From contig PCUW01000040.1 of assembly GCA_002787775.1 (NCBI GenBank), positions 43,334-107,333 of the forward strand: 64,000 nucleotides of DNA, read 5' to 3'. The notes under the pieces were generated by a model. It did not search any database, was not told the DNA's origin, and worked only from the letters and a program-made list of their open reading frames with translations. The position numbers and the translations under genes are program-made. This DNA is from Bdellovibrionales bacterium CG12_big_fil_rev_8_21_14_0_65_38_15 (lineage in GTDB: Bacteria; Bdellovibrionota; Bacteriovoracia; Bacteriovoracales; Bacteriovoracaceae). Position 1 is the first letter of the stretch. The number at the start of each line of letters is the position of its first letter. Below, in pieces: positions 3,195 through 56,154 of the stretch.

Positions 3195-4115
3195 ATGAAA
3201 ATGCAACTTATCGCTTCTTGCGCGTTAGTTTTAACCAATGCATCTATCTTCGCTCAAGACATGAGCATACCAAAAGTCATCTACGGTGAAGATAATCGTG
3301 TTGATGTTGCCGATTCGAATAACCCACTTTTTATTAAACTTGCTATGTCGACAGCAGCTCAAATTGAAAAGAGTAAGCTCACAGTAAGAGGTTCAGATGC
3401 TATTTTGTCATTTGAATCACTTGAAAATGGCATGGGTGTTTGTCCAACTGAAAAGTTTGCGGCCCAAAATAGTATCGCAAGATGTTCGGGCTTTTTAATT
3501 GCTAAAGACCTTCTTGTTACAGCAGGACATTGCGTTCGCTCACAAGATGAATGTGATAAATACGCTTGGGTTTTTGACTACAGAGAAGGTGAAGTTAATG
3601 ATGGAAAACTTCCTTCATCAAGCGTTTACTCTTGTAAGAAGATTATTCGCCAAGCTCTTGATCCAATATCAGAAGCTGACTACGCTCTGATTCAACTTGA
3701 TCGTAAAGTTAAAGACAGAAAGCCACTTAAGTTTAGAAAAAGTGGAAGTCCAAGTGTTGGTGACGAGTTAGTTGTGATTGGACATCCTTCAGGATTAACA
3801 ACCAAGATATCTGATGGTGCTAAGGTTATTGAGAACAGCGCTGATCAATATGTCTTAACTGATTTAGATACATATGGTGGAAACTCAGGTTCGGCCGTAT
3901 TCAATGCCACTTCAGGAGCTATTGAAGGTATTCTAGTTCGTGGTGCTAAAGACTATGTCTATGATTGGCAGCAAGGCTGTTACGTTTCAAACGTGTGTGA
4001 GTCTGTTGGCGGCGCAGGTTGTGAAGGTGAAGAAGTTAGCCGTATCAGTAAGGTAAAACTCGGTAAATTTACAGGAATTATTGGATTCTTTAAAAGACTG
4101 TTTGGTCTTCTATAA
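3195..4115 (+). CDS. Exported trypsin-like serine protease (S1 family)
   Basis: The 306-residue protein has a Sec signal peptide (about residues 1-20, cleavage after SIFA). The catalytic triad is complete: His112 in TAGHC, Asp162 in ADYALIQLD and Ser231 in GGNSGSAVF. The short S1 domain resembles V8/glutamyl-endopeptidase-like members more than classical trypsin. A cysteine-containing tail (about 245-280) may form disulfides. About 70 residues lie between the signal and the domain and could be a propeptide. AAGGGG lies just upstream of the ATG. It is likely periplasmic or secreted; specificity is not predictable here. Confidence 0.92.
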   Translation: MKMQLIASCALVLTNASIFAQDMSIPKVIYGEDNRVDVADSNNPLFIKLAMSTAAQIEKSKLTVRGSDAILSFESLENGMGVCPTEKFAAQNSIARCSGFLIAKDLLVTAGHCVRSQDECDKYAWVFDYREGEVNDGKLPSSSVYSCKKIIRQALDPISEADYALIQLDRKVKDRKPLKFRKSGSPSVGDELVVIGHPSGLTTKISDGAKVIENSADQYVLTDLDTYGGNSGSAVFNATSGAIEGILVRGAKDYVYDWQQGCYVSNVCESVGGAGCEGEEVSRISKVKLGKFTGIIGFFKRLFGLL

Positions 4116-42078: not shown

Positions 42079-42375
42079 ATGATTGTTAGCATAGACGGTA
42101 AGATCACAAATGATATTTGGTTTACGAACCAATCCAAGTCCTTACCAAAAGAGTTATGGATAAGAACCAAAGCACTACTGACAATAATGCATTCAACCAG
42201 CACCTTAAATGACTTAAAAATTAAAGGTGAGCCACCACATATTCGACTTCATAAGCTCAAGGGCGATAGAAAAGAATGTTGGAGCGTAACGATTAAGTTG
42301 CCTTGGTGTATAACGTTTAGATTTAAAAATGGAGAATTCTTCGACGTTAAAGTTGAGAATTATCATAGAGGTTGA
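42079..42375 (+). CDS. higB: HigB-type mRNA-interferase toxin (RelE superfamily)
   Basis: HigB cleaves mRNA on the ribosome. The 98-residue protein shows the family pattern: a beta strand, helical middle, LHKLKGDRKECWSVTIK and the C-terminal FRFKNGEFFDVKVENYH. AAGGAG lies about five bases before the ATG. It precedes its antitoxin gene, the reversed order typical of higBA, with a 4-base overlap region. Confidence 0.92.
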   Translation: MIVSIDGKITNDIWFTNQSKSLPKELWIRTKALLTIMHSTSTLNDLKIKGEPPHIRLHKLKGDRKECWSVTIKLPWCITFRFKNGEFFDVKVENYHRG

Positions 42376-42377
42376 TT

Positions 42378-42638
42378 ATGATTCAAAACCCTTTACCACT
42401 TCACCCTGGAAAAGTACTTTCTGAAGTTTATATGGCAGAGATGAACCTTAATCAGACCACTTTGGCAGCTCTGTGTGAGTGCTCACCAAGAAAGATCAAT
42501 GAGATCGTTAATGGTAAAAGAGGAATTTCGCCTTCTTTTGCAATCACCCTTGAAGATAAGCTTGGTACCACGGCCGAGATGTGGGTCAGAATGCAAGCTG
42601 AGTACGATCTTTGGGAAGCAAGACAGAAGATTGCTTAA
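42378..42638 (+). CDS. higA: HigA-type antitoxin (XRE family)
   Basis: The 86-residue protein starts LPLHPGKVL and has an HTH (LNQTTLAALCECSPRKINEIVNGKRGI). I start at ATG 42378, six bases after GAGG; a TTG at 42372 would overlap that site. It neutralises HigB and likely represses the palindromic promoter upstream. It forms a complete module with higB. Confidence 0.92.
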   Translation: MIQNPLPLHPGKVLSEVYMAEMNLNQTTLAALCECSPRKINEIVNGKRGISPSFAITLEDKLGTTAEMWVRMQAEYDLWEARQKIA

Positions 42639-45803: not shown

Positions 45804-47012
45804 ATGATACAAAATCAACGTTTTAACTACAAGACGGAAGAAGTGACTACCACTATGAAAGACAACATCAATATCAGACGCGCTAACGTTAATGATCGTG
45901 AAGAGCTTTTGTCATTGTATCTCAATGTTTACGGTGATGATTATCCGTTAGAGCTCGGAACAAATAAACAATTAATGACTAAGCTGCTTGAGAACCAAGA
46001 TTGTGCTTTTTGGTTTGTCGCAGAGATTAGCGATCGACCAGGTATCGCCGCTTCTTGTGTCGTAGAGCTTGAACCTGAATTTAAAATTGGAAAAGTCACA
46101 GGGGCTGCCGTTCACCCACTATGTACTGGCTTAGGTTTATCAACGAGATTAATTGGTCACGCAGTTTCAACTGTCATGGAAAAAGCTCCGAGCATAAATA
46201 CTCTTTATGCAACTACCAGAACAGTGACTATGGCTTCGCAAAAGATGCTTCTATCCAATGGTTTTAAGCCACTTGGTATTTTTCCTAACGCTAGAAAAAT
46301 TAAAACATATGAAACATTAACGCTTATGGGATATTTTAGAGAAGGCGTTCTTGAAAAAAGATCTCCTGTTCAAAAAATACCACCAAGCCTAGTTGAATTA
46401 TATCTGCAAACGAATAAATCAATCGGTGATATTCGTCCGGTTGAGCTGGTGGAAGACTGTCCGGCATTTTCAACTGATACTGCCCATGCAGATTCAAAAT
46501 GGGAATTCATTCAGGCACCAGAGTTTGTTGAAAAAAGATTTAATGAAATTTTCAGCAATGATAGAGAATCAACATTCTATCCATTTCATAAACCAAATCT
46601 CATCATATCAAATAGAGATTTGGGCGTAGAAATGTTTGCAAGCTTTAACAAGAAAGATCACTACTGTGTGATTATTAGTGCCAATAAGCCGATTACAACG
46701 ATTAATGGACACTTTAAGCAGTTGGCTTTTTCATTTAAAGAAATCGGTGTTTATTACCTTGAAACATTAGTTCGACTTGATTCGTTTGAGGCGATTTGCT
46801 TTTTAGGTGCAAATAGATTCTTACCATCAGCATATTATCCGGCCATGCGTGAGATTGATAATGTCGCACACGATTATGTCTTAATGACTCGTACCATGGT
46901 TCCACTCGACTTTAGTGAAAGCCAGATCGCACCAGAATTCACTCCTTTTGTTAAAGAGTATGTTCGCCAATGGATTGACTTGAACCTTAGTACGGTGGGA
47001 GTTCATTTGTGA
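45804..47012 (+). CDS. GNAT acetyltransferase-like protein with extra C-terminal domain
   Basis: The N-terminal GNAT fold (about 20-175) carries the acetyl-CoA motif GAAVHPLCTGLGLSTRLIG. A further 200 residues (about 200-402), alpha/beta in outline, form an unassigned C-terminal domain. Starts at ATG 45804 or 45855 are possible; neither has a strong site. The stop overlaps the LuxE GTG start (GTGA). It is the first gene of the lux-like operon and could modify an amino group on the pathway substrate or product, or act on a carrier. The role is inferred from context only. Confidence 0.8.
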   Translation: MIQNQRFNYKTEEVTTTMKDNINIRRANVNDREELLSLYLNVYGDDYPLELGTNKQLMTKLLENQDCAFWFVAEISDRPGIAASCVVELEPEFKIGKVTGAAVHPLCTGLGLSTRLIGHAVSTVMEKAPSINTLYATTRTVTMASQKMLLSNGFKPLGIFPNARKIKTYETLTLMGYFREGVLEKRSPVQKIPPSLVELYLQTNKSIGDIRPVELVEDCPAFSTDTAHADSKWEFIQAPEFVEKRFNEIFSNDRESTFYPFHKPNLIISNRDLGVEMFASFNKKDHYCVIISANKPITTINGHFKQLAFSFKEIGVYYLETLVRLDSFEAICFLGANRFLPSAYYPAMREIDNVAHDYVLMTRTMVPLDFSESQIAPEFTPFVKEYVRQWIDLNLSTVGVHL

Positions 47013-48148
47013 GTTATACGATTCCATCAAAAGATGAGTTGTCGCATATTGAACAGCTTTGTTTGATGGAAAATCCGTACGATAATTTTGAAGAAACCCG
47101 TGAGCTTTTCAAGAAAGCCATGAAAGAAAATATCCTATGGCATAGCGAACGCTCAGAATTCTATCGAAAATTTCTTGTAGGTAACAATTTTGATTTAAAC
47201 ACTGATTTAGAGCTATCAAAAGTTCCGGGTATTATAGCCACTTTCTTTAAACGAAATGAGATTCGATCTATTGATGAAAAAGATGTTTCTTTACACCTGA
47301 CAAGCTCAGGAACGACTGGTCAAAAGTCGCAAATGTTCTTTGATGAATGGACGATTGGCTCGGCCCAAGACATGGTGGCCAAGATTTTTAAGCATAATGG
47401 CTGGGTCAGTGATCAACCCGTGAACTATATGCTTTATACCTATGAAACAGAGAAAGATAGTAAGCTTGGAACTTCATTTACAGATCATTTTTTAGCAAGC
47501 TTTGCACCTTCTAATAAAGTCGAGCTAGCGCTTAAGCTTGGACGAAATAATAAACACCGCTTTGATCTTCATGGTGTGATTAAAGCTTTTCAAGACTATA
47601 ACGAAGACGGACTACCTGTTCGTATCTTCGGTTTTCCAGCTTTCTTTCATGCCACGTTAGAAGAGATGAAAATTCGCGGTATTAAATTAAACCTTCATCC
47701 TGAGAGCCTTGTCTTTCTGGGCGGGGGATGGAAAGGACTTGCTGATAAGCAAGTTGATAAAAAAGAAACTTATCTGTTAGCCACTGAAGTTCTTGGTATT
47801 CCAGACGGGCAGCTTCGTGATGGTTTTGGTTCGGTTGAACATTGTATTCCTTATGTGGAATGTGAAAATCATGAATTTCATCTGCCGATTTGGTCACATA
47901 TTGAAATTCTTGATGTGAAGACAAGAGCGCCACTTGGTTTTGGAGAGAAAGGCTTTTTAAAGTTGATGTCTCCTTATATTACATCCGTTGCCGCCAATGC
48001 CGTGATCATGACAGATAAAGCGTCTTTGCATCAGGCGAGTGAATGTGATTGTAAAACCAAGACGCCATTTTTTAGACTTTATGGCAGAGCAGGCGTTTCA
48101 AAATCTAAATCATGTGCTGTTGCGGCAGCAGAGCTGTTGGGGGAATGA
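47009..48148 (+). CDS. LuxE-family acyl-protein synthetase
   Basis: LuxE activates a fatty acid as acyl-AMP and holds it on a C-terminal Cys before passing it to LuxC. The 379-residue protein has the adenylation loop LTSSGTTGQKS (97-107) and a Cys at 369, ten residues from the end, the position of the acyl-acceptor Cys in luminous bacteria. A GGGWKG segment and DGFGSVEH also match the family. The GTG start overlaps the GNAT stop by 4 bp. Its acceptor would be the downstream LuxC domain. No luxAB lies in the window. Confidence 0.9.
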   Translation: MSYTIPSKDELSHIEQLCLMENPYDNFEETRELFKKAMKENILWHSERSEFYRKFLVGNNFDLNTDLELSKVPGIIATFFKRNEIRSIDEKDVSLHLTSSGTTGQKSQMFFDEWTIGSAQDMVAKIFKHNGWVSDQPVNYMLYTYETEKDSKLGTSFTDHFLASFAPSNKVELALKLGRNNKHRFDLHGVIKAFQDYNEDGLPVRIFGFPAFFHATLEEMKIRGIKLNLHPESLVFLGGGWKGLADKQVDKKETYLLATEVLGIPDGQLRDGFGSVEHCIPYVECENHEFHLPIWSHIEILDVKTRAPLGFGEKGFLKLMSPYITSVAANAVIMTDKASLHQASECDCKTKTPFFRLYGRAGVSKSKSCAVAAAELLGE

Positions 48149-50379
48149 TGAAAAATCTCATTGCTCCTAATGTTTTAGAGCTACTTAAAAAAATTGATTT
48201 AATGAAATCGAAAGTACCATCTGAAGTTCAAGCCTTTTTTGATTCAGCTTTATGGGAAGCAAGATTTCGCCGTGAAACAGGACGTGACTTAAGAGATTTA
48301 TGCCTAAGACGTGATCGAAGCTCTACTCATGATGCTATTTTTGAAAGTGTCAGACCTCTTGGGTTAATTGGTCATATCATGCCAGGAAATTCTGATTGGA
48401 CACCGCTATTGGCGATCCTTGAAACTTCCATTACAGGTAACACTTCCTGGGTGAAATTGCCTTCTGGAAGTTCGACTGAAGTTATTTTGAGTCAGCTAAA
48501 AGAATTAGGGCTTGATGAGTCTGTTGCTGTTTATACTGAAAGAAATGATATCGAAGAGCTTTATAAAAAGTCAGATGCCATTTCAGCTTGGGGTAATGAG
48601 TCTTCATTAGATGAAATTCGCTCAAAGATCTCATCACAGACACGCTTTATTGCTTGGGGCCATCGTATCAGTTTCTCCTATCTAACAAAATGGGATGATG
48701 CTGCCTCTGATTTAGCTGCGGCCATTGTTAAATATGAACAACAAGCTTGCTCTTCTCCTCAAGTTGTCTACCTAGAAGAAGCTAGTTTTGATGAAGCAGT
48801 AAGCTTTGCTAAAGAGTTAAGTCAAAAACTACAATCCTATTCATCAAGCTTTCCTGATATTGATGACTCAAGCTGGGCCGAGCTTTCAAACTTCAGTGAA
48901 ACACATTTCGCGGAATCATTTTTAAAAGAAAAGATGATAATTGAAGCAGAAGATAAGAGTTTCAGAATTGTTGTGGATACGAATACTGCGTTTGAAGCCA
49001 GCATACTTCACCGCTCAATTTTTATTAAAACTATTAAGAAAAATGAAATAAAAGAAGTCTTAAGACCTCATCGTCGTCTTTTACAAAGTGCTGGCATCAA
49101 CGCTAATCCGCAAGATATTGCCGGACTATGTGAAGAGCTATTCGACGCCGGAGTTTCTAGGGTTTGTACTATTTCTCAAATGCAAGAAGCTCATCCAATG
49201 GAATCTCATGATGGTGAGTTCTCTCTTTCAAGATTTGTAAAAAGAGTCACTCTTTCAAATCCTAGTCTGACTGTAAATGCACTCAACTTGGCGCAAGTAG
49301 ATGTGGCTAAAACGTCTACGATTTCAACCAAGTCTGATTTTTCAGCGCAAAAAGTGGAAAACGCCCATTATTACTTTAAAAGCGGTGGCTCAACCAGTGC
49401 ACCAGTCTTATCTCCCTTTATGCTGCAAGATTATCATTTGCAAATGCAGGTTGCAGCTGATGGACTTATCGCTGCTGGCTTAAATCCAAAAACTGATCGC
49501 TGTATGAACTTATTCTTTGGTGGCGGTCTCTATGGTGGATTTATTAGTTTCACAGATATCTTAGAGAAAATTGCAGCTATCCAATACCCTATGGCCGGCT
49601 ATGTCGATACTGATTTCGTACTAGATATGATCGTTAAAGAAAATGTTAACGTCTTACTTGGAATGCCAAGCTATTTGATAAATCTATTTAAACTTGCTGA
49701 GGAAAAAAATATTCGTCTGCCTGTTAAAAAGATTTATTTTGGCGGTGAACCTTTTTCTGAATCTCAACGAAATTGGTTGAAAAACATCGGTGTAGAAATT
49801 ATTAATTCTGCTTCATATGGCTCTGTTGATGCAGGGCCTTTGGGTTATCAGTGTCAGTCGTGTGATCCTGGTGTCCACCACGTTAATACCACAATTCAAA
49901 AAATTGAAATCGTCGATCTTGAAAAAGATGAACCTGTTCTTGATGGTCAAGTAGGGCGAGTGCTAGTTTCTTCTTTAGCTCGCTCTGGTATATCAATTCA
50001 GCGCTATCAGATCGGTGATACAGCAAAATGGATTAATGGTTCTTGTGAATGCGGTGATCCTTCTCCAAGGCTTTTGCTCGCTGGTCGTGTAGGGGATATT
50101 TTCAAATTTGGTGGCAGTTTTATTAATGCCCAAAGCATTATGAAAAAGCTTGAGGTCAAAGAACTTCAAATTGAACTTAAGCATATTGATCTTAAAGACT
50201 GCTTAATAATAAACTCACCTGATGTTAATACGGGCGCGTTAGCAAGTCTTCTTGAACTTCATGATCTGCATGAAGTGGTTGAATTAGAGAAAACAGCTTC
50301 TATAGAATTTAAAAATACACCATTTATTAAAGCAATATCTGGTAAACAGCCATTAGTGGTAGATCACCGTCATGGATGA
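48145..50379 (+). CDS. LuxC acyl reductase fused to PaaK-like adenylate-forming domain
   Basis: Residues about 1-385 match LuxC: GHIMPGNSDWT, WGHRISFSY and the catalytic Cys202 in EQQACSSPQ, which forms the acyl-thioester reduced by NADPH to an aldehyde. Residues about 395-744 match phenylacetate-CoA-ligase-like enzymes: YYFKSGGSTSAP, FGGEPFSE, SYGSVDAGPLGY, YQIGDTAKW and SGKQPLVVDHR near the end. I start at ATG 48145, overlapping the LuxE stop; ATG 48148 is possible. The fusion places an acid-activating enzyme on the reductase. I know of no standard architecture of this kind. The substrate may be a fatty or aromatic acid. Confidence 0.88.
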   Translation: MMKNLIAPNVLELLKKIDLMKSKVPSEVQAFFDSALWEARFRRETGRDLRDLCLRRDRSSTHDAIFESVRPLGLIGHIMPGNSDWTPLLAILETSITGNTSWVKLPSGSSTEVILSQLKELGLDESVAVYTERNDIEELYKKSDAISAWGNESSLDEIRSKISSQTRFIAWGHRISFSYLTKWDDAASDLAAAIVKYEQQACSSPQVVYLEEASFDEAVSFAKELSQKLQSYSSSFPDIDDSSWAELSNFSETHFAESFLKEKMIIEAEDKSFRIVVDTNTAFEASILHRSIFIKTIKKNEIKEVLRPHRRLLQSAGINANPQDIAGLCEELFDAGVSRVCTISQMQEAHPMESHDGEFSLSRFVKRVTLSNPSLTVNALNLAQVDVAKTSTISTKSDFSAQKVENAHYYFKSGGSTSAPVLSPFMLQDYHLQMQVAADGLIAAGLNPKTDRCMNLFFGGGLYGGFISFTDILEKIAAIQYPMAGYVDTDFVLDMIVKENVNVLLGMPSYLINLFKLAEEKNIRLPVKKIYFGGEPFSESQRNWLKNIGVEIINSASYGSVDAGPLGYQCQSCDPGVHHVNTTIQKIEIVDLEKDEPVLDGQVGRVLVSSLARSGISIQRYQIGDTAKWINGSCECGDPSPRLLLAGRVGDIFKFGGSFINAQSIMKKLEVKELQIELKHIDLKDCLIINSPDVNTGALASLLELHDLHEVVELEKTASIEFKNTPFIKAISGKQPLVVDHRHG

Positions 50380-51553
50380 TTTTCTCCATAATATTCAAAA
50401 GAATTCACCGTTTTATAAGAAGCTTTGGAGCAATTCACCATTAGATTTGTCTAAGCTACCAATTATAGACCAAGAAGAGTTTTGGGATGCTAATGATTGG
50501 AAAGATAATACTTTGTTAACAGACTCAAATCGAAGTGGAGTTGTATTCAAGAGTGGCGGCACAACAGGTCGTCCAAAATTTTCTATTTTCACTAAAGCTG
50601 AATGGCATGAATTTACTAAAATCTTTGGTGAATCGATGGATGCTGTTTTAGATGACGGTGATCGTGTTGCTAATATGTTTTACTCTGGTGAGCTCTATGC
50701 CAGCTTTCTTTTTATTGAGAAATCGTTAGAGCAGTCAAAAAAAGAGACCTTAACTTTTCCAGTTGCAGGTTCGACCAGCCTTAAGGAAATGGTTAAGATT
50801 ATCAACGACTACGATATTAATGTACTAGCAGGTGTTCCAACTTCACTTATGGCTTTAGCTGAATATCTTTTAAGTGAAAAAATTGAACTTAAGGTCACAA
50901 AGATTCTTTTTGGTGGTGAATCGCTATTTGACGACCAACGCCCCTTACTGAATAAAGCCTTTAATGAACCCGCTATTCATTCCGTAGGGTATGCCAGTGT
51001 CGATGCTGGTCATCTTGGGGGTTCAATGCCACATCATAGTTCAAAGGCCCACAAGGTACTTGATGGTACTGTCATGCAAATTGTTGATGATGAAGACAAT
51101 TTAATCACAAAGCCAGGCGTTAGTGGTCGTTTATTAATGACGAATCTTACCAGAACTCTAATGCCAATTATTCGCTATCCTGTAGGGGATTTGGCCGAGT
51201 GGATAGAACCAAATACAAGTTTTTTGATTTTAGGTCGATCCAATGAAGGTGCCAGAGTAGGTCCAGTAACTGTTAATCGTGATGATCTAGGTTCCATATT
51301 TTTGCAACTAGAGGCTGATATAAATTTTCAATTATTGATTGAACGTATTGAAGGTAAAGACCTCTTGAGTATTTGTTACGTTGGACAAGTTGATGAAGCG
51401 AAAGCTCTTAAACTCTTATTAGCACAACGAAAGATGCTGGTTGATTCAATTGAAAAAGGACTGATATTAACGCCGAAATTTGTTAAAGTAAAAGAGTTAG
51501 AAAAGAATGCAAGAACGGGCAAATTAAAATTTGTGGTGGATAAACGTTTTTAA
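50372..51553 (+). CDS. PaaK-like adenylate-forming enzyme
   Basis: The 393-residue protein has FKSGGTTGRPK (60-70; the Gly-rich P-loop-like motif), FGGESLFD, GYASVDAGHLGG, YPVGDLAEW and a C-terminal NARTGKLKFVVDKR with the expected catalytic Lys. It is a stand-alone relative of the C-terminal half of the preceding LuxC fusion, with which it overlaps by 8 bp. The two differ in the residue after SGG (STS against TTG). It probably activates a carboxylic acid as an AMP ester or CoA thioester in the same pathway. Confidence 0.88.
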   Translation: MDDFLHNIQKNSPFYKKLWSNSPLDLSKLPIIDQEEFWDANDWKDNTLLTDSNRSGVVFKSGGTTGRPKFSIFTKAEWHEFTKIFGESMDAVLDDGDRVANMFYSGELYASFLFIEKSLEQSKKETLTFPVAGSTSLKEMVKIINDYDINVLAGVPTSLMALAEYLLSEKIELKVTKILFGGESLFDDQRPLLNKAFNEPAIHSVGYASVDAGHLGGSMPHHSSKAHKVLDGTVMQIVDDEDNLITKPGVSGRLLMTNLTRTLMPIIRYPVGDLAEWIEPNTSFLILGRSNEGARVGPVTVNRDDLGSIFLQLEADINFQLLIERIEGKDLLSICYVGQVDEAKALKLLLAQRKMLVDSIEKGLILTPKFVKVKELEKNARTGKLKFVVDKRF

Positions 51554-52386
51554 CGCTGAAGCATCATATTGCCATCGACGCCAATGATTTCACCCACTGA
51601 CATTTCATTCCAGATATTTTCACCTTGAAGCGGCTCACTTGAGAAAATTAAGTGGTTAACTTTTCCGTCAACTGTTGGTTTTTCACAAGAAGATGAAAGG
51701 CTAGGACAGGTGTCTCTTTCAGGACAAAGAGTTTTCCACGTTGACCAATGAAGCCGTTGTCCACCTTGGTGGGCGATCATGCTGTTGCCATTGGTTAGAA
51801 TGATGGTGAGATAGTTCTCAACGGCACCTTTGCCTTCTTCATGATAAATCTCTCCAGAGATAGAAGTGATTTGATTAATGGTCTCAACCAATGAAGATTT
51901 AATTAAATGAAAGTCTGTATTGGTCTGTGAAAGATCAACTTTGTTAGAAAGATTAGTTAGTAAAAGATAAAATATAATTTCACTGTCAGTATCGCCCAAG
52001 ATAAAGCGTCGTAAATTTGGGGTAACCAAATTCAAAAGGGTCGCTCGATGTTTATCAAAGTCTTTTATATTTCCATTATGAGCAAAGATCCAAGGCCCAA
52101 ATTGAAATGGGTGGGCATTTAATATTGTATGGTGTCCTTGGGTGGCTTTTCTAATGTGCGCAACTACAGTCTGAGAACTTACGATTCCTGAAACCCTTTT
52201 AAAGAGATGATCATCTAAAGCAGATTCTTTGGATTTAATAACGTGTGGGGCACCGGCTTGATAGTAAGCGACGCCCCAACCGTCGGGGTGTTTTTCACTT
52301 TGACCTTGTAGGGCGTTTTCGGCATGAACAAGAGAGCTATGTACTTGGCTTTGTAAAACTGATCTGAAACCAAAAAGTCTACACAC
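51550..52386 (-). CDS. Class II glutamine amidotransferase (YafJ-like)
   Basis: The catalytic Cys2 follows the start Met in MCRLFGF, and NTn-hydrolase features include HPDGWGVAYY, VVAHIRKATQG and HPFQFGPWIFAHNGN. The 278-residue protein is a lone glutaminase domain like YafJ, without a synthase partner, and its acceptor is unknown. It overlaps the TetR gene by 8 bp and the convergent PaaK-like gene by 4 bp. Its role beside an RND pump is unclear. Confidence 0.9.
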   Translation of the reverse strand: MCRLFGFRSVLQSQVHSSLVHAENALQGQSEKHPDGWGVAYYQAGAPHVIKSKESALDDHLFKRVSGIVSSQTVVAHIRKATQGHHTILNAHPFQFGPWIFAHNGNIKDFDKHRATLLNLVTPNLRRFILGDTDSEIIFYLLLTNLSNKVDLSQTNTDFHLIKSSLVETINQITSISGEIYHEEGKGAVENYLTIILTNGNSMIAHQGGQRLHWSTWKTLCPERDTCPSLSSSCEKPTVDGKVNHLIFSSEPLQGENIWNEMSVGEIIGVDGNMMLQR

Positions 52387-53011
52387 TCTCTATCTTCTCC
52401 CATTCTTCGCTTTGAATATGTGCCAGGAAACTTCTCACCGTATGCTTTAAGCTTTTGGCTTGATATTCCTTTTCGAACAGATCCATTTTACCACAATGCT
52501 GCTTAGTCCAGCTAGAACTGACTAATAATGCCATATGGACGATCTGATTAAAGATCGCCCTTGTCGTCCAAATTTTGGCCTTTTCAGTAGCATTATCACC
52601 AACTTCGCGGTTGATAGCGGCTAATAATACGATTCCGCCGGGTGGACCAATATTCTCTTCTTCCACATTATTGATCTCAGCATGCCCGTCTGTTTCAGTT
52701 AAAATAACTTTAAATGAGTTCATCATTTCATGACGTCGCTCGATAAAATAATCAAAAATGCGCTGAACAAGCACTTCTACGGTTGGTTCATCTAAAGCAA
52801 GCTTGGCCACATCAGCTTCCATACGATCGCAGTTGGCTTCCATAACGTTATAGTAAAGGTTTAGTTTATTTTGAAAGTGATAGTTCACAGCAGCTAGATT
52901 CACTCCTGCCTCTTTTGCAATTTCACGAATAGAAGCCCCTTCGTATCCGTGCCTTGCAAAAAGTTCTGTCGCGACTTCTAGAATTTTTTGTTTCGTATCG
53001 TTTTCGCTCAT
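52379..53011 (-). CDS. TetR-family transcriptional regulator
   Basis: The N-terminal HTH is ILEVATELFARHGYEGAS, then IREIAKEAGVNLAAVNYHF. The rest is a helical ligand-binding domain of about 140 residues. It overlaps the RND gene stop by 4 bp and lies last but one in the TolC-RND-TetR-amidotransferase run, so it likely represses the operon at the palindrome 57637-57672. The ligand would be an exported compound. Confidence 0.92.
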   Translation of the reverse strand: MSENDTKQKILEVATELFARHGYEGASIREIAKEAGVNLAAVNYHFQNKLNLYYNVMEANCDRMEADVAKLALDEPTVEVLVQRIFDYFIERRHEMMNSFKVILTETDGHAEINNVEEENIGPPGGIVLLAAINREVGDNATEKAKIWTTRAIFNQIVHMALLVSSSWTKQHCGKMDLFEKEYQAKSLKHTVRSFLAHIQSEEWEKIESV

Positions 53012-56000
53012 TTCACATCTCCAACAAAGGATGAGTTATCGCTACTTGAAACTTTAGCCCCAGTAATTTTTAGTTTAACACGCTCAAGAAATGCCACCCA
53101 GTCTTCAAGTATAGCGTAGGCAGGTGGAATCCAGATTAGAGTTAGAATTGTACCACTGGTAAGTCCCCAAGCCATTGCAAGAGTCATTGGAATCAACATG
53201 GCATCGGCTCCACCAATTCCATACGCTGTAGGGATAAGTCCCGAGATGGTTGTTAGTGAAGTAACCATAACAGCTCTTAAGCGAAGTCTTGAGGCTTTAG
53301 CTAAAATCTCATTAAGAGGCAGTTTTCCTTCGGCCCTCATTTCATCAATGAATGAAATCAAAACGATACCAGAGTTAACAATAATACCACCTAGGCCAAT
53401 GATACCAATTAATGCCAAGAAACTTACAGGTCTATTGTGTAGATAGAAGGCGACAGCAAAACCAAGTAATCCTAGTGGAATTGTCGTCATGATAATGAAT
53501 GGGCGAAGGTAACTTCTAAACAAGAAAACCATTAGGGCGAAGATACCAATGAGAGAAAGAACTAGAGCGTTAAATAATGATTGCAAGGAATCATTAGTAC
53601 TTTCAGCAACACCACCAAATTTTATGGAAACAGTTGGGTGAGTGTCTTCAATTTTTTTCCATTCTTCAAGAAGTTTAGCGTTGGCTTTTACCGCTGTGAT
53701 TTTTGTTTCATCAACACTACCTAGTAGCGTTTTTGATCGTTTAAAGTCATAGCGTTTAATAAATGGAGTTCCATTTTCTTTTCTAAAGCTAGCCACTGTT
53801 GACAGTGGAACCAAGTTGCCTTGATTATCCATGATTTGGACTTTACTTAAATCCATTAGGTCTTTTCTGTCTTGAGGTTTAAAACGCACAAGTAAATCGA
53901 CATCTTTATTGTTCAAAGTTACATCAGAAGCGATGACGCCTGCCCCAGCAATCTTTACTGCGTCACCTATAGATTTAACGGTTAAACCAAGTCTATTAGC
54001 TTCAGCATAGTTAACATCAATCCAGATCTCATCATCCGAGACAACATCGTCACTTTTAATATCGAGTACGCCATCAAATTCGGCCATTTTAACTTTTAAC
54101 TTGTTAACGGCATCATTAAGTTCTTCGTTACTATTTGATCTAAATGTTGCTTCAATTGGGTTACCAACTGGTGGGCCATTGATTTGTTCTTCAAACGTAA
54201 GTTTGCCGTTAACATTATAGTCGTGATTTCTAAGACGCTCTAAAATTTCAGTATAATAGATATTATTTTTTGCGTAATCTGAAACGTAGATCATGAGCAT
54301 CCCTACGTTATCAGAGTCTTGTGCCTTAGGGTCGTCTGGGCGAACTTTTGATGTGCCGGCGCGACCAATAATATGATCTGCATCTTCTCCAAGAACTTCT
54401 TTTACTTGCTTGGCAATTGCATCCATTTCGTCTTGAGTTGTCTCAAGTTTGTTGCCAATAGGGGCTTGAAGTCTAGCGATATATAGCTCAGTTTGTTCAG
54501 CTGGAAAGAGGATGAATTTGTTCGCTACACCAATTAAGAAAATTGAGGTGAAGAGAATGGCAAAAAAGCCGACTAGAACAAAGTATCTTCTTTTAACAAC
54601 CACATTCATAAAGTTTTCAAACTTTTCTTCAAGTTTGTTAAACCAATCTTGCTTCACTTCTTGGCCGTCAGCGCTTCCGATTTTAGCGTTTACTAAAACG
54701 AGTCTCATTGGAAGGAAAAGGAAAGATTCAAATAATGAGAGGATTAGGGAAGCAGTAACAATCACTGGGATATACTTAATGAACTGTCCCATGACTCCAG
54801 TAGTAACAAGCATCGGCAAGAAGGCTGCAATTGTAGTGAAAGCTGTTGCCGTGATTGGAAGCCAAAGAGATTTGATTGACTCAGTGGCAGCATCTTGAGC
54901 ATTCATTCCATCTTTTCTAAGACGTGTGAAGTTTTCTGCAATAACAACGGCGTTATCAACAAGCATACCAAGAGCGATAATCAATGCAAGGATTGTAATA
55001 GAGTTAAGAGTATATCCAAGAGCACTCATCACGGCGAGTGTTCCAAGAACGGCTAATGGCAATGATAAAGAAGCCATAAGACCGATTTTTCCGGGTAGGA
55101 AAATGAAAAGGAAAACCACAACGAGTAGCAAGCCTTGAACAGCGTTACTCTCAAGTACATCAAGTTTATCTTGAACTTTTTCAGCCTCATCATGGAAAGC
55201 ATAGAATTGATGTGTTTCGCCGTAGCGTTTTCTAAAATTTTCTACTTTGGCTTTAAGGTCGCGAACCATTTGTAGAGTATCTGTTCCACCTTTTTTATTA
55301 GCAATAACAAGTGTTGCAGGTTGGCCAGCATATTGAGCGAGAGTATTGATTTCTTCAGCACCATCTTCAACTTGAGCAACATCTTTGACTTGAATTTTCT
55401 TACCATTAAAGTTTGTACGGATGATAATGTCTTCGATATCAGAGGTGTTTTGAACCTTACCTTCTAGGCGAATTAATGTTTGCGATTCATTCTTTTGTAA
55501 TTCACCGCCTGGAATATTTAAATTTCTGGCTTGAATTTTTCCAAGAACTTCATTCGTACCAATATGATAGAAATCCAATTTCTTTTGATCTAAGTGAACA
55601 ATAAAGCGGCGATTAGAATAACCGGTTAAACGTGCTTCTTTCACAGCACTATTATCTTCCATTTCTTCCTTAAGAAGATCGGCGATCAAGTCACGTTGGC
55701 GTTTATCATTTGGTCCAGTTACGGCAACCTCATAAACGGGGAACTCTTCACTCTTAACTTCAGTAAAAGTAGGTTTTTCTTCAAGGTCAGTTGGAAGGCC
55801 TTGTGCACGGTCAACTGCTTTTTGAAGATCATTCATGGCCTTAACAACATCAGCATTATCAATATCAACACGGATATAAATAGTAGATATGCCCGGTTGT
55901 GAGACAGACTTAACGTCTTTTAGACCTATGACTCCGCGAATTTCATCTTCAATTGGCTTTGTAATCTTCGCTTCAATATCTTCTGCTGATGCGCCCCTGT

Positions 56001-56154
56001 AGACTGTTGTGACAATCGCTTGAGCAAAATCTACAGTTGGATAACTTTCAGCATTCATGCCTTTTAAGCCTTGAACACCCATAATCAGCATCCCAAATGA
56101 TAGAACGATGGTGAGTTTGTAATTTCGTATAAAAAAGTTAGCTATATTTTCCAT
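53008..56154 (-). CDS. RND-family efflux pump inner-membrane protein
   Basis: The 1048-residue protein has the RND layout: N-terminal TM, large periplasmic loop, TM2-6 (LLLVVVFLFIFLP, LALIIALGMLVDNAVVIAENF), a second large loop and TM7-12. The TM4 segment has one Asp (VDN) where many drug pumps have two. It resembles HAE1-type pumps. It is flanked by a TolC-like gene 9 bp upstream and by tetR. No membrane-fusion protein is next to it. The substrate is unknown. Confidence 0.95.
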   Translation of the reverse strand: MENIANFFIRNYKLTIVLSFGMLIMGVQGLKGMNAESYPTVDFAQAIVTTVYRGASAEDIEAKITKPIEDEIRGVIGLKDVKSVSQPGISTIYIRVDIDNADVVKAMNDLQKAVDRAQGLPTDLEEKPTFTEVKSEEFPVYEVAVTGPNDKRQRDLIADLLKEEMEDNSAVKEARLTGYSNRRFIVHLDQKKLDFYHIGTNEVLGKIQARNLNIPGGELQKNESQTLIRLEGKVQNTSDIEDIIIRTNFNGKKIQVKDVAQVEDGAEEINTLAQYAGQPATLVIANKKGGTDTLQMVRDLKAKVENFRKRYGETHQFYAFHDEAEKVQDKLDVLESNAVQGLLLVVVFLFIFLPGKIGLMASLSLPLAVLGTLAVMSALGYTLNSITILALIIALGMLVDNAVVIAENFTRLRKDGMNAQDAATESIKSLWLPITATAFTTIAAFLPMLVTTGVMGQFIKYIPVIVTASLILSLFESFLFLPMRLVLVNAKIGSADGQEVKQDWFNKLEEKFENFMNVVVKRRYFVLVGFFAILFTSIFLIGVANKFILFPAEQTELYIARLQAPIGNKLETTQDEMDAIAKQVKEVLGEDADHIIGRAGTSKVRPDDPKAQDSDNVGMLMIYVSDYAKNNIYYTEILERLRNHDYNVNGKLTFEEQINGPPVGNPIEATFRSNSNEELNDAVNKLKVKMAEFDGVLDIKSDDVVSDDEIWIDVNYAEANRLGLTVKSIGDAVKIAGAGVIASDVTLNNKDVDLLVRFKPQDRKDLMDLSKVQIMDNQGNLVPLSTVASFRKENGTPFIKRYDFKRSKTLLGSVDETKITAVKANAKLLEEWKKIEDTHPTVSIKFGGVAESTNDSLQSLFNALVLSLIGIFALMVFLFRSYLRPFIIMTTIPLGLLGFAVAFYLHNRPVSFLALIGIIGLGGIIVNSGIVLISFIDEMRAEGKLPLNEILAKASRLRLRAVMVTSLTTISGLIPTAYGIGGADAMLIPMTLAMAWGLTSGTILTLIWIPPAYAILEDWVAFLERVKLKITGAKVSSSDNSSFVGDVK

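Follow-up and report, generated by a model that had tools for sequence, protein, structure and literature searches.

A divergent leupABCD-like operon in a Bdellovibrionota genome

Sequence comparisons indicate that a four-gene operon in a Bdellovibrionota genome is a divergent relative of leupABCD, a system whose core is already published. As such a relative, the operon probably directs the synthesis of a short N-acylated peptide aldehyde that would inhibit proteases, a reading to which we assign a probability of roughly 0.8. leupABCD is the leupeptin operon reportedly described by Li et al. in 2020 in Xenorhabdus, Photorhabdus and Klebsiella michiganensis, and the product expected of such an operon is Ac-Leu-Leu-argininal or a close analogue.

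The operon lies in a 64,000-nucleotide stretch of DNA (the window) on contig PCUW01000040.1, which belongs to an assembly of 68 contigs that is 92.7% complete. Its features, numbered from the first base of the window, are:

45804..47012, + strand, GNAT gene (402 aa, ORF call), first in the operon
47009..48148, + strand, LuxE gene (379 aa, GTG start)
48113-48115, + strand, codon of the LuxE acyl-acceptor Cys369
48145..50379, + strand, LuxC-PaaK fusion gene (744 aa from the ATG overlapping the LuxE stop)
48316..49242, + strand, LuxC reductase domain of the fusion (residues 58-366)
48748-48750, + strand, codon of the LuxC catalytic Cys202 (motif QQACSSPQ)
49303..50376, + strand, PaaK-type adenylation domain of the fusion (residues about 387-744)
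50372..51553, + strand, stand-alone PaaK gene (393 aa)

The mechanical open reading frame of the fusion begins at 48112, and we used the ATG at the LuxE stop instead. An earlier note on this DNA had read four overlapping genes here (GNAT, LuxE, LuxC-PaaK and PaaK), and the open reading frames, the successive overlaps of 4, 4 and 8 bp and the Pfam matches confirm them. LuxE matches PF04443 at 6.6e-33. A single protein, the fusion, matches both PF05893 (LuxC) at 9.8e-52 and PF00501 (AMP-binding) at 2.5e-7; the stand-alone PaaK matches PF00501 at 2.9e-7, and the tandem GNAT of 402 aa matches Acetyltransf_1 at 1.1e-4.

The two cysteines named in the earlier note as catalytic are kept on alignment: Cys369 of LuxE is invariant in 85/85 aligned cassette proteins and Cys202 of LuxC in 109/109. 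Lys734 of the fusion PaaK domain is present in the window and kept in 108/109. The alignments behind these cysteine, lysine and (below) glycine counts hold one row per locus, are length-filtered and include the window. Searches of the window's own genome returned a single LuxE and, for LuxC, one strong match plus a weaker 30-bit match on a different contig.

Assignment of LeupA and LeupB

The genes behind the leup names can be identified from published primers. In the text available from PMC8283571, the leup cluster of Klebsiella CAV1374 is placed at 315,353-321,183, primers are given for both leupA and leupB, and leupAB is described as a marker of K. michiganensis. The reverse complement of leupB_r encodes EQLKDH, which stands at residue 47 of a K. 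michiganensis LuxC-PaaK fusion (P0261) and is held by 66/120 proteins listed in a search with gammaproteobacterial fusions, many K. michiganensis proteins being among the matches. Read from its third base, leupA_f encodes EDSDSQ, which occurs in one of 360 fetched proteins, at residue 19 of a LuxE (P0167). P0167 is tied to Klebsiella by this primer peptide alone. Read from its first base, the same primer gives MKIAIHN, which would imply that LeupA is not LuxE; this peptide occurs in 0/360 proteins, and the reading was rejected.

The coordinates can be compared as well. A leupA start at 315353, P0167 and a 1-bp gap between leupA and leupB, taken from a Salmonella plasmid copy and from X. bovienii, predict primer sites at 315407 (leupA) and 316620 (leupB). 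The latter equals the coordinate given for leupB_r in the consulted part of PMC8283571. The former equals the third base of leupA_f if the end coordinate in that part, 315,425, is correct; we used the end coordinate because the printed coordinates overshoot by two: they cover 23 bases, and the primer has 21. Because primer peptides and coordinates agree, we assign LeupA to LuxE and LeupB to the LuxC-PaaK fusion. A search for the primer gave 0/392 in the family of the genome carrying locus L038 and 0/7 in one genus, probably because the genomes sampled did not include K. michiganensis.

Evidence from other genera points the same way. The Photorhabdus cassette, measured between the first start codon of LuxE and the stop codon of GNAT, is 5,759 bp long in 10/12 genomes and 5,757 and 5,765 bp in the others. 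We take the antiSMASH flank for a leupeptin region to be 10 kb per side. With 10-kb flanks on both sides, the 5,759-bp cassette matches the 25,759 bp that an excerpt of PMC12542766 gives for the region called 'Leupeptin' by antiSMASH in Photorhabdus khanii. X. bovienii leupeptin is attributed to a non-NRPS pathway with separate AMP-dependent ligases and a reductase (PMC11212599, in part), and X. bovienii T228 has a single LuxE match, which lies inside the cassette. Among the NCBIfam models matched by the cassettes of Salmonella and X. bovienii, none carries a leup name. By these sequence criteria, the leup operon of Klebsiella is a cassette of this kind.

The operon in the window shares with leupABCD a LuxE gene followed by the LuxC-PaaK fusion and then PaaK, plus a GNAT gene, in one array. 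It differs in that GNAT comes first and belongs to another subfamily, whereas in leupABCD GNAT comes last. The earlier note had proposed a novel system and an unusual fusion. The published leupABCD has an equivalent gene set, and LeupB is itself a published fusion with a known product. Nor is the fusion family rare: a scan of named public genomes gave 435 places with a relative. Our literature search on LuxC/LuxE/PaaK cassettes found no paper on the cassette among the items listed; it barely covered leup in Bdellovibrionota, for which we claim no absence from print. The portions of PMC9177418, PMC10676414, PMC13273461 and PMC11194217 that we consulted added nothing on the genes.

Comparison with the luminous Lux system

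In luminous bacteria LuxE and LuxC use fatty acids, and the earlier note had looked to a signal or envelope lipid as the product. Such a pathway would turn fatty acids into a fatty aldehyde, an envelope lipid or a lipid signal, and part of the text of PMC4875605 also places LuxE/LuxC in islands for flagellin glycosylation that carry fatty acid genes as well. The window LuxE is nonetheless closer to LeupA (45% identity to P0167, the LuxE with the leupA primer peptide, over 373 residues and 337 bits) than to the luminous LuxE of Photorhabdus (22% identity, 67 bits). It also scores 97.5 bits in NCBIfam against a LuxE cut-off of 550, and the fusion scores 52.5 bits against a LuxC cut-off of 750. 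Of ten proteins in and around the operon scanned with Pfam, none matched an acyl carrier family or a family of fatty acid synthesis. The match of the cassette to leup displaced a fatty-aldehyde or lipid product from first place among the explanations, and we now regard such a product as very unlikely.

The earlier note had also argued that, with luciferase missing, the aldehyde would serve a purpose other than light. Genome-wide, no member of the luciferase family PF00296 was found in this 92.7% complete assembly, in a search whose control was positive in 10/14 genomes. LuxD (PF02273) gave zero matches in the assembly, and the control likewise gave zero in 14 genomes. The operon differs from the luminous LuxC-LuxE reductase (7xc6) in scores far below the cut-offs, in the luciferase not found and in the fusion of LuxC to PaaK. 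Overall, the earlier note has stood on the gene identities, the catalytic cysteines, the luciferase not found in the assembly and a fate of the aldehyde other than light, and its novelty and lipid direction have not stood. Our data suggest that, outside luminous bacteria, a gene that bears the name LuxE or LuxC can encode an enzyme of peptide-aldehyde synthesis.

Predicted product and mechanism

Under the mechanism that we consider most likely, peptide assembly would require neither a ribosome nor an NRPS nor a carrier protein. Two PaaK modules, the stand-alone enzyme and the one in the fusion, would activate amino acids or the growing peptide by adenylation and form the amide bonds that link them. 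Acylation of the free alpha-amine by the tandem GNAT would provide the cap. LuxE would adenylate the C-terminal carboxylate and hold the peptide acid as a thioester on Cys369; the peptide acyl group would then move to Cys202 of LuxC, which would use NAD(P)H to release it as an aldehyde. This scheme agrees with two suggestions of the earlier note, the probable activation of more than one acid and a reduced or amidated acyl compound as the product, since leupeptin is both. NRPS-made peptide aldehydes of the antipain type would share the product class, but the four operon proteins contain no NRPS condensation or carrier domain detectable by Pfam.

PaaK-family ligases are the best solved relatives of the stand-alone PaaK, and both window adenylating parts share fold and sequence relation with such ligases (4r1l, 2y4o, ClxA 9s45). 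Phenylacetate-CoA ligases form thioesters, whereas for the window PaaK parts we predict amide bond formation; the fold matches include the amide-forming McbA and GH3 proteins, alongside many CoA ligases. The stand-alone PaaK is 33-41% identical to its counterparts in Xenorhabdus, Salmonella and Streptantibioticus (33-35% for X. bovienii and Salmonella), and by operon position it is the counterpart of the third leup gene, LeupC.

The peptide aldehyde could instead be an intermediate, with a derived pyrazinone signal as the product that acts externally. PMC11480411, in the part available, connects leup operons with Leu-Arg pyrazinones in Photorhabdus and Klebsiella, and genes for SpoIIE and RsbW-type partner-switching proteins adjoin the cassette in some relatives. 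Those relatives are distant and the partner-switching genes are not in the window; moreover, the window operon contains no protease or oxidase gene. We consider a pyrazinone end product quite unlikely here.

Divergence of the window operon

Several features count against a leup-type product. The window fusion is only 33% identical to P0261, the K. michiganensis protein with the leupB primer peptide, over residues 41-742, and is about 60 residues shorter. Its phosphate loop reads SGGSTSAP, with Ser418 at a position where 106/109 proteins have Gly. The structure model of the fusion has a pLDDT of 85, and residues 415-418 are the sole stretch listed below pLDDT 50. Together, Ser418 and the low local confidence suggest that the PaaK domain of the fusion may be altered or weak.

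In a tree of 49 rows, the window fusion pairs with Halobacteriovorax sp. SP4097 (63% identity) within a set made up largely of Bdellovibrionota rows, and sits on a stem 1.42 changes per column long; the leup rows from proteobacteria form the sister group of Actinomycetota. The tree was built by a quick method with SH-aLRT support only and carries warnings on long rows and on uneven letter make-up in many rows. The window LeupB is short and fast-evolving, with a changed phosphate loop.

The GNAT is divergent too. It is 24% identical to the GNAT of the X. bovienii leup cassette across 148 residues and has an insignificant 24-residue match to the Salmonella counterpart. hhalign relates it to the LeupD type at a probability of 96%, in the N half alone, and a fold comparison barely covered the C half of the model. 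LeupD is assigned to the GNAT of the leup operon by operon position. The window GNAT seems to belong to another subfamily than the characterised LeupD, whose role we predict it would fill. A search of the window genome, run without a positive control, found no LeupD-type GNAT. Each of three more distant Bdellovibrionota clusters (L116, L117 and L119) contains relatives of both GNAT kinds, and so the two kinds look like separate lineages.

The long stem, the 33% LeupB identity, Ser418 and the divergent GNAT were all counted against the leup-type reading, as was the flanking sequence, where Pfam found no MFS gene among six ORFs scanned. An alternative is that the operon, with its changed phosphate loop and short LeupB, has drifted: one ligase would be idle and the product would be an amide or an amino aldehyde, or there would be no product at all. 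Ser418, the low local model confidence and the long stem favour drift. Against it, all four frames are open, the cysteines and Lys734 are conserved, and the 13 close relatives of the fusion (57-92% identity) hold their length at 739-744 aa. We judge drift unlikely and retain the N-acylated peptide aldehyde as the predicted product.

Distribution of the cassette

At least 455 relatives of the fusion came out of a search through 5.8 billion proteins in which 7998 candidates were scored. We kept the best 80 of the 435 loci in named public genomes. LuxE is present in 78 of these 80, a second PaaK in 79 and a GNAT of either kind in 76 (63 of the window type, 13 of the other); all four genes occur in 73, which is beyond chance and makes this a conserved cassette. 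A gene from three MFS clusters, for which Pfam was shown per cluster representative, occurs in 46. ORFs at these loci were called mechanically, which leads to shadow ORFs in GC-rich Streptomyces clusters, and loci L084-L113 are short, which lowers the GNAT counts there.

The best 80 loci carry eight phylum labels: Actinomycetota (38), Bdellovibrionota (22), Pseudomonadota (12) and, with one locus each, Candidatus Melainabacteria, Myxococcota, Elusimicrobiota, Bacteroidota and Nitrospirota; three are unlabelled. The Elusimicrobiota and Nitrospirota loci lie outside the 73, one (L027) having no clustered LuxE and the other (L068, on a short contig) no GNAT. Within the phylum of the window, 99/368 genomes match the fusion at E 1e-30 or better, some across the PaaK part only. 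Leupeptin-type gene sets are thus found beyond the gammaproteobacteria, in Bdellovibrionota, Actinomycetota and other phyla, and an orphan-looking 'Lux' cluster gains a testable product class.

We tentatively propose, as a possibility somewhat short of even odds, that a carrier-free, non-ribosomal Lux/PaaK peptide-aldehyde machine is spread across many phyla, well outside the pathogens from which it is known, and that a re-tooled variant in this Bdellovibrionota lineage, with another GNAT and a short, fast-evolving LeupB, makes a new aldehyde. Its residues or cap would be unlike those of leupeptin, and the cell would use it to control trypsin-like proteases secreted by itself or by prey and grazers. 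The window genome has eight trypsin-family matches, one of them inside the window, and these suggest possible home targets for an inhibitor of secreted proteases.

Leupeptins from actinomycetes appear in a 1969 title in the reference list of PMC11212599, and Streptomyces leupeptin is counted among NRPS products in a passage of PMC10548850. Xenorhabdus loci (L029, L062) have the order LuxE, fusion, PaaK, GNAT. In clusters of the Streptomyces type (L023, L028) the order is PaaK, MFS, GNAT, LuxE, fusion, and a non-NRPS route to leupeptin becomes testable in Streptomyces.

Gene neighborhood of the cassette

The operon is met by a tightly packed, convergently transcribed array whose large open reading frame resembles an RND efflux pump gene. 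The EgtC-like gene of this array also lies close to the cassette in nine further clustered loci. Elsewhere in the window, a trypsin-family gene and two short, mutually overlapping open reading frames, which resemble a HigB/HigA-type toxin-antitoxin pair, were identified.

3195-4115, +: open reading frame with a trypsin-family match at 3477-3935 (family search of the genome)
42079-42638, +: two short, mutually overlapping open reading frames
51550-53011 and 53008-56154, -: EgtC-like class II amidotransferase, TetR regulator and large open reading frame

The genome contains eight trypsin-family matches, and the one inside the window is a possible target of the protease inhibitor that the operon is predicted to produce.

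Partner-switching domains adjoin the cassettes of three loci (L118, L034 and L078). An RsbW-like ATPase domain is fused to the GNAT protein in L034 and L118. In L118 and L078, the cassette adjoins SpoIIE phosphatases that carry sensor domains. The order PaaK-MFS-GNAT-LuxE-LuxC/PaaK is found in L023, L028 and further Streptomyces-type loci; these clusters are candidates for a non-NRPS route to leupeptin in Streptomyces.

Variant and plasmid-borne forms

L114 and L115 represent a diverged form that retains GNAT, LuxE and LuxC-PaaK. No second PaaK was found in either cluster, and the next gene encodes a protein of ~378 aa for which Pfam gave no convincing match. The database protein P0078 is a 1011-aa fusion with a stretch, inserted after the first PaaK, that resembles the second PaaK of the cassette, a sequence arrangement hinting that both PaaK parts act together. 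In a genome of the window's phylum (G195:C16, 48341-50349), the LuxC and PaaK matches occupy separate neighboring open frames that are 460 and 398 aa long; the gene is either frameshifted here or present as a split form.

In Salmonella enterica, the whole cassette (LuxE, LuxC-PaaK, PaaK and GNAT) resides on a conjugative plasmid (L126, CP054717.1, 3489-9247). One more plasmid record shows a match, which covers part of the fusion gene.
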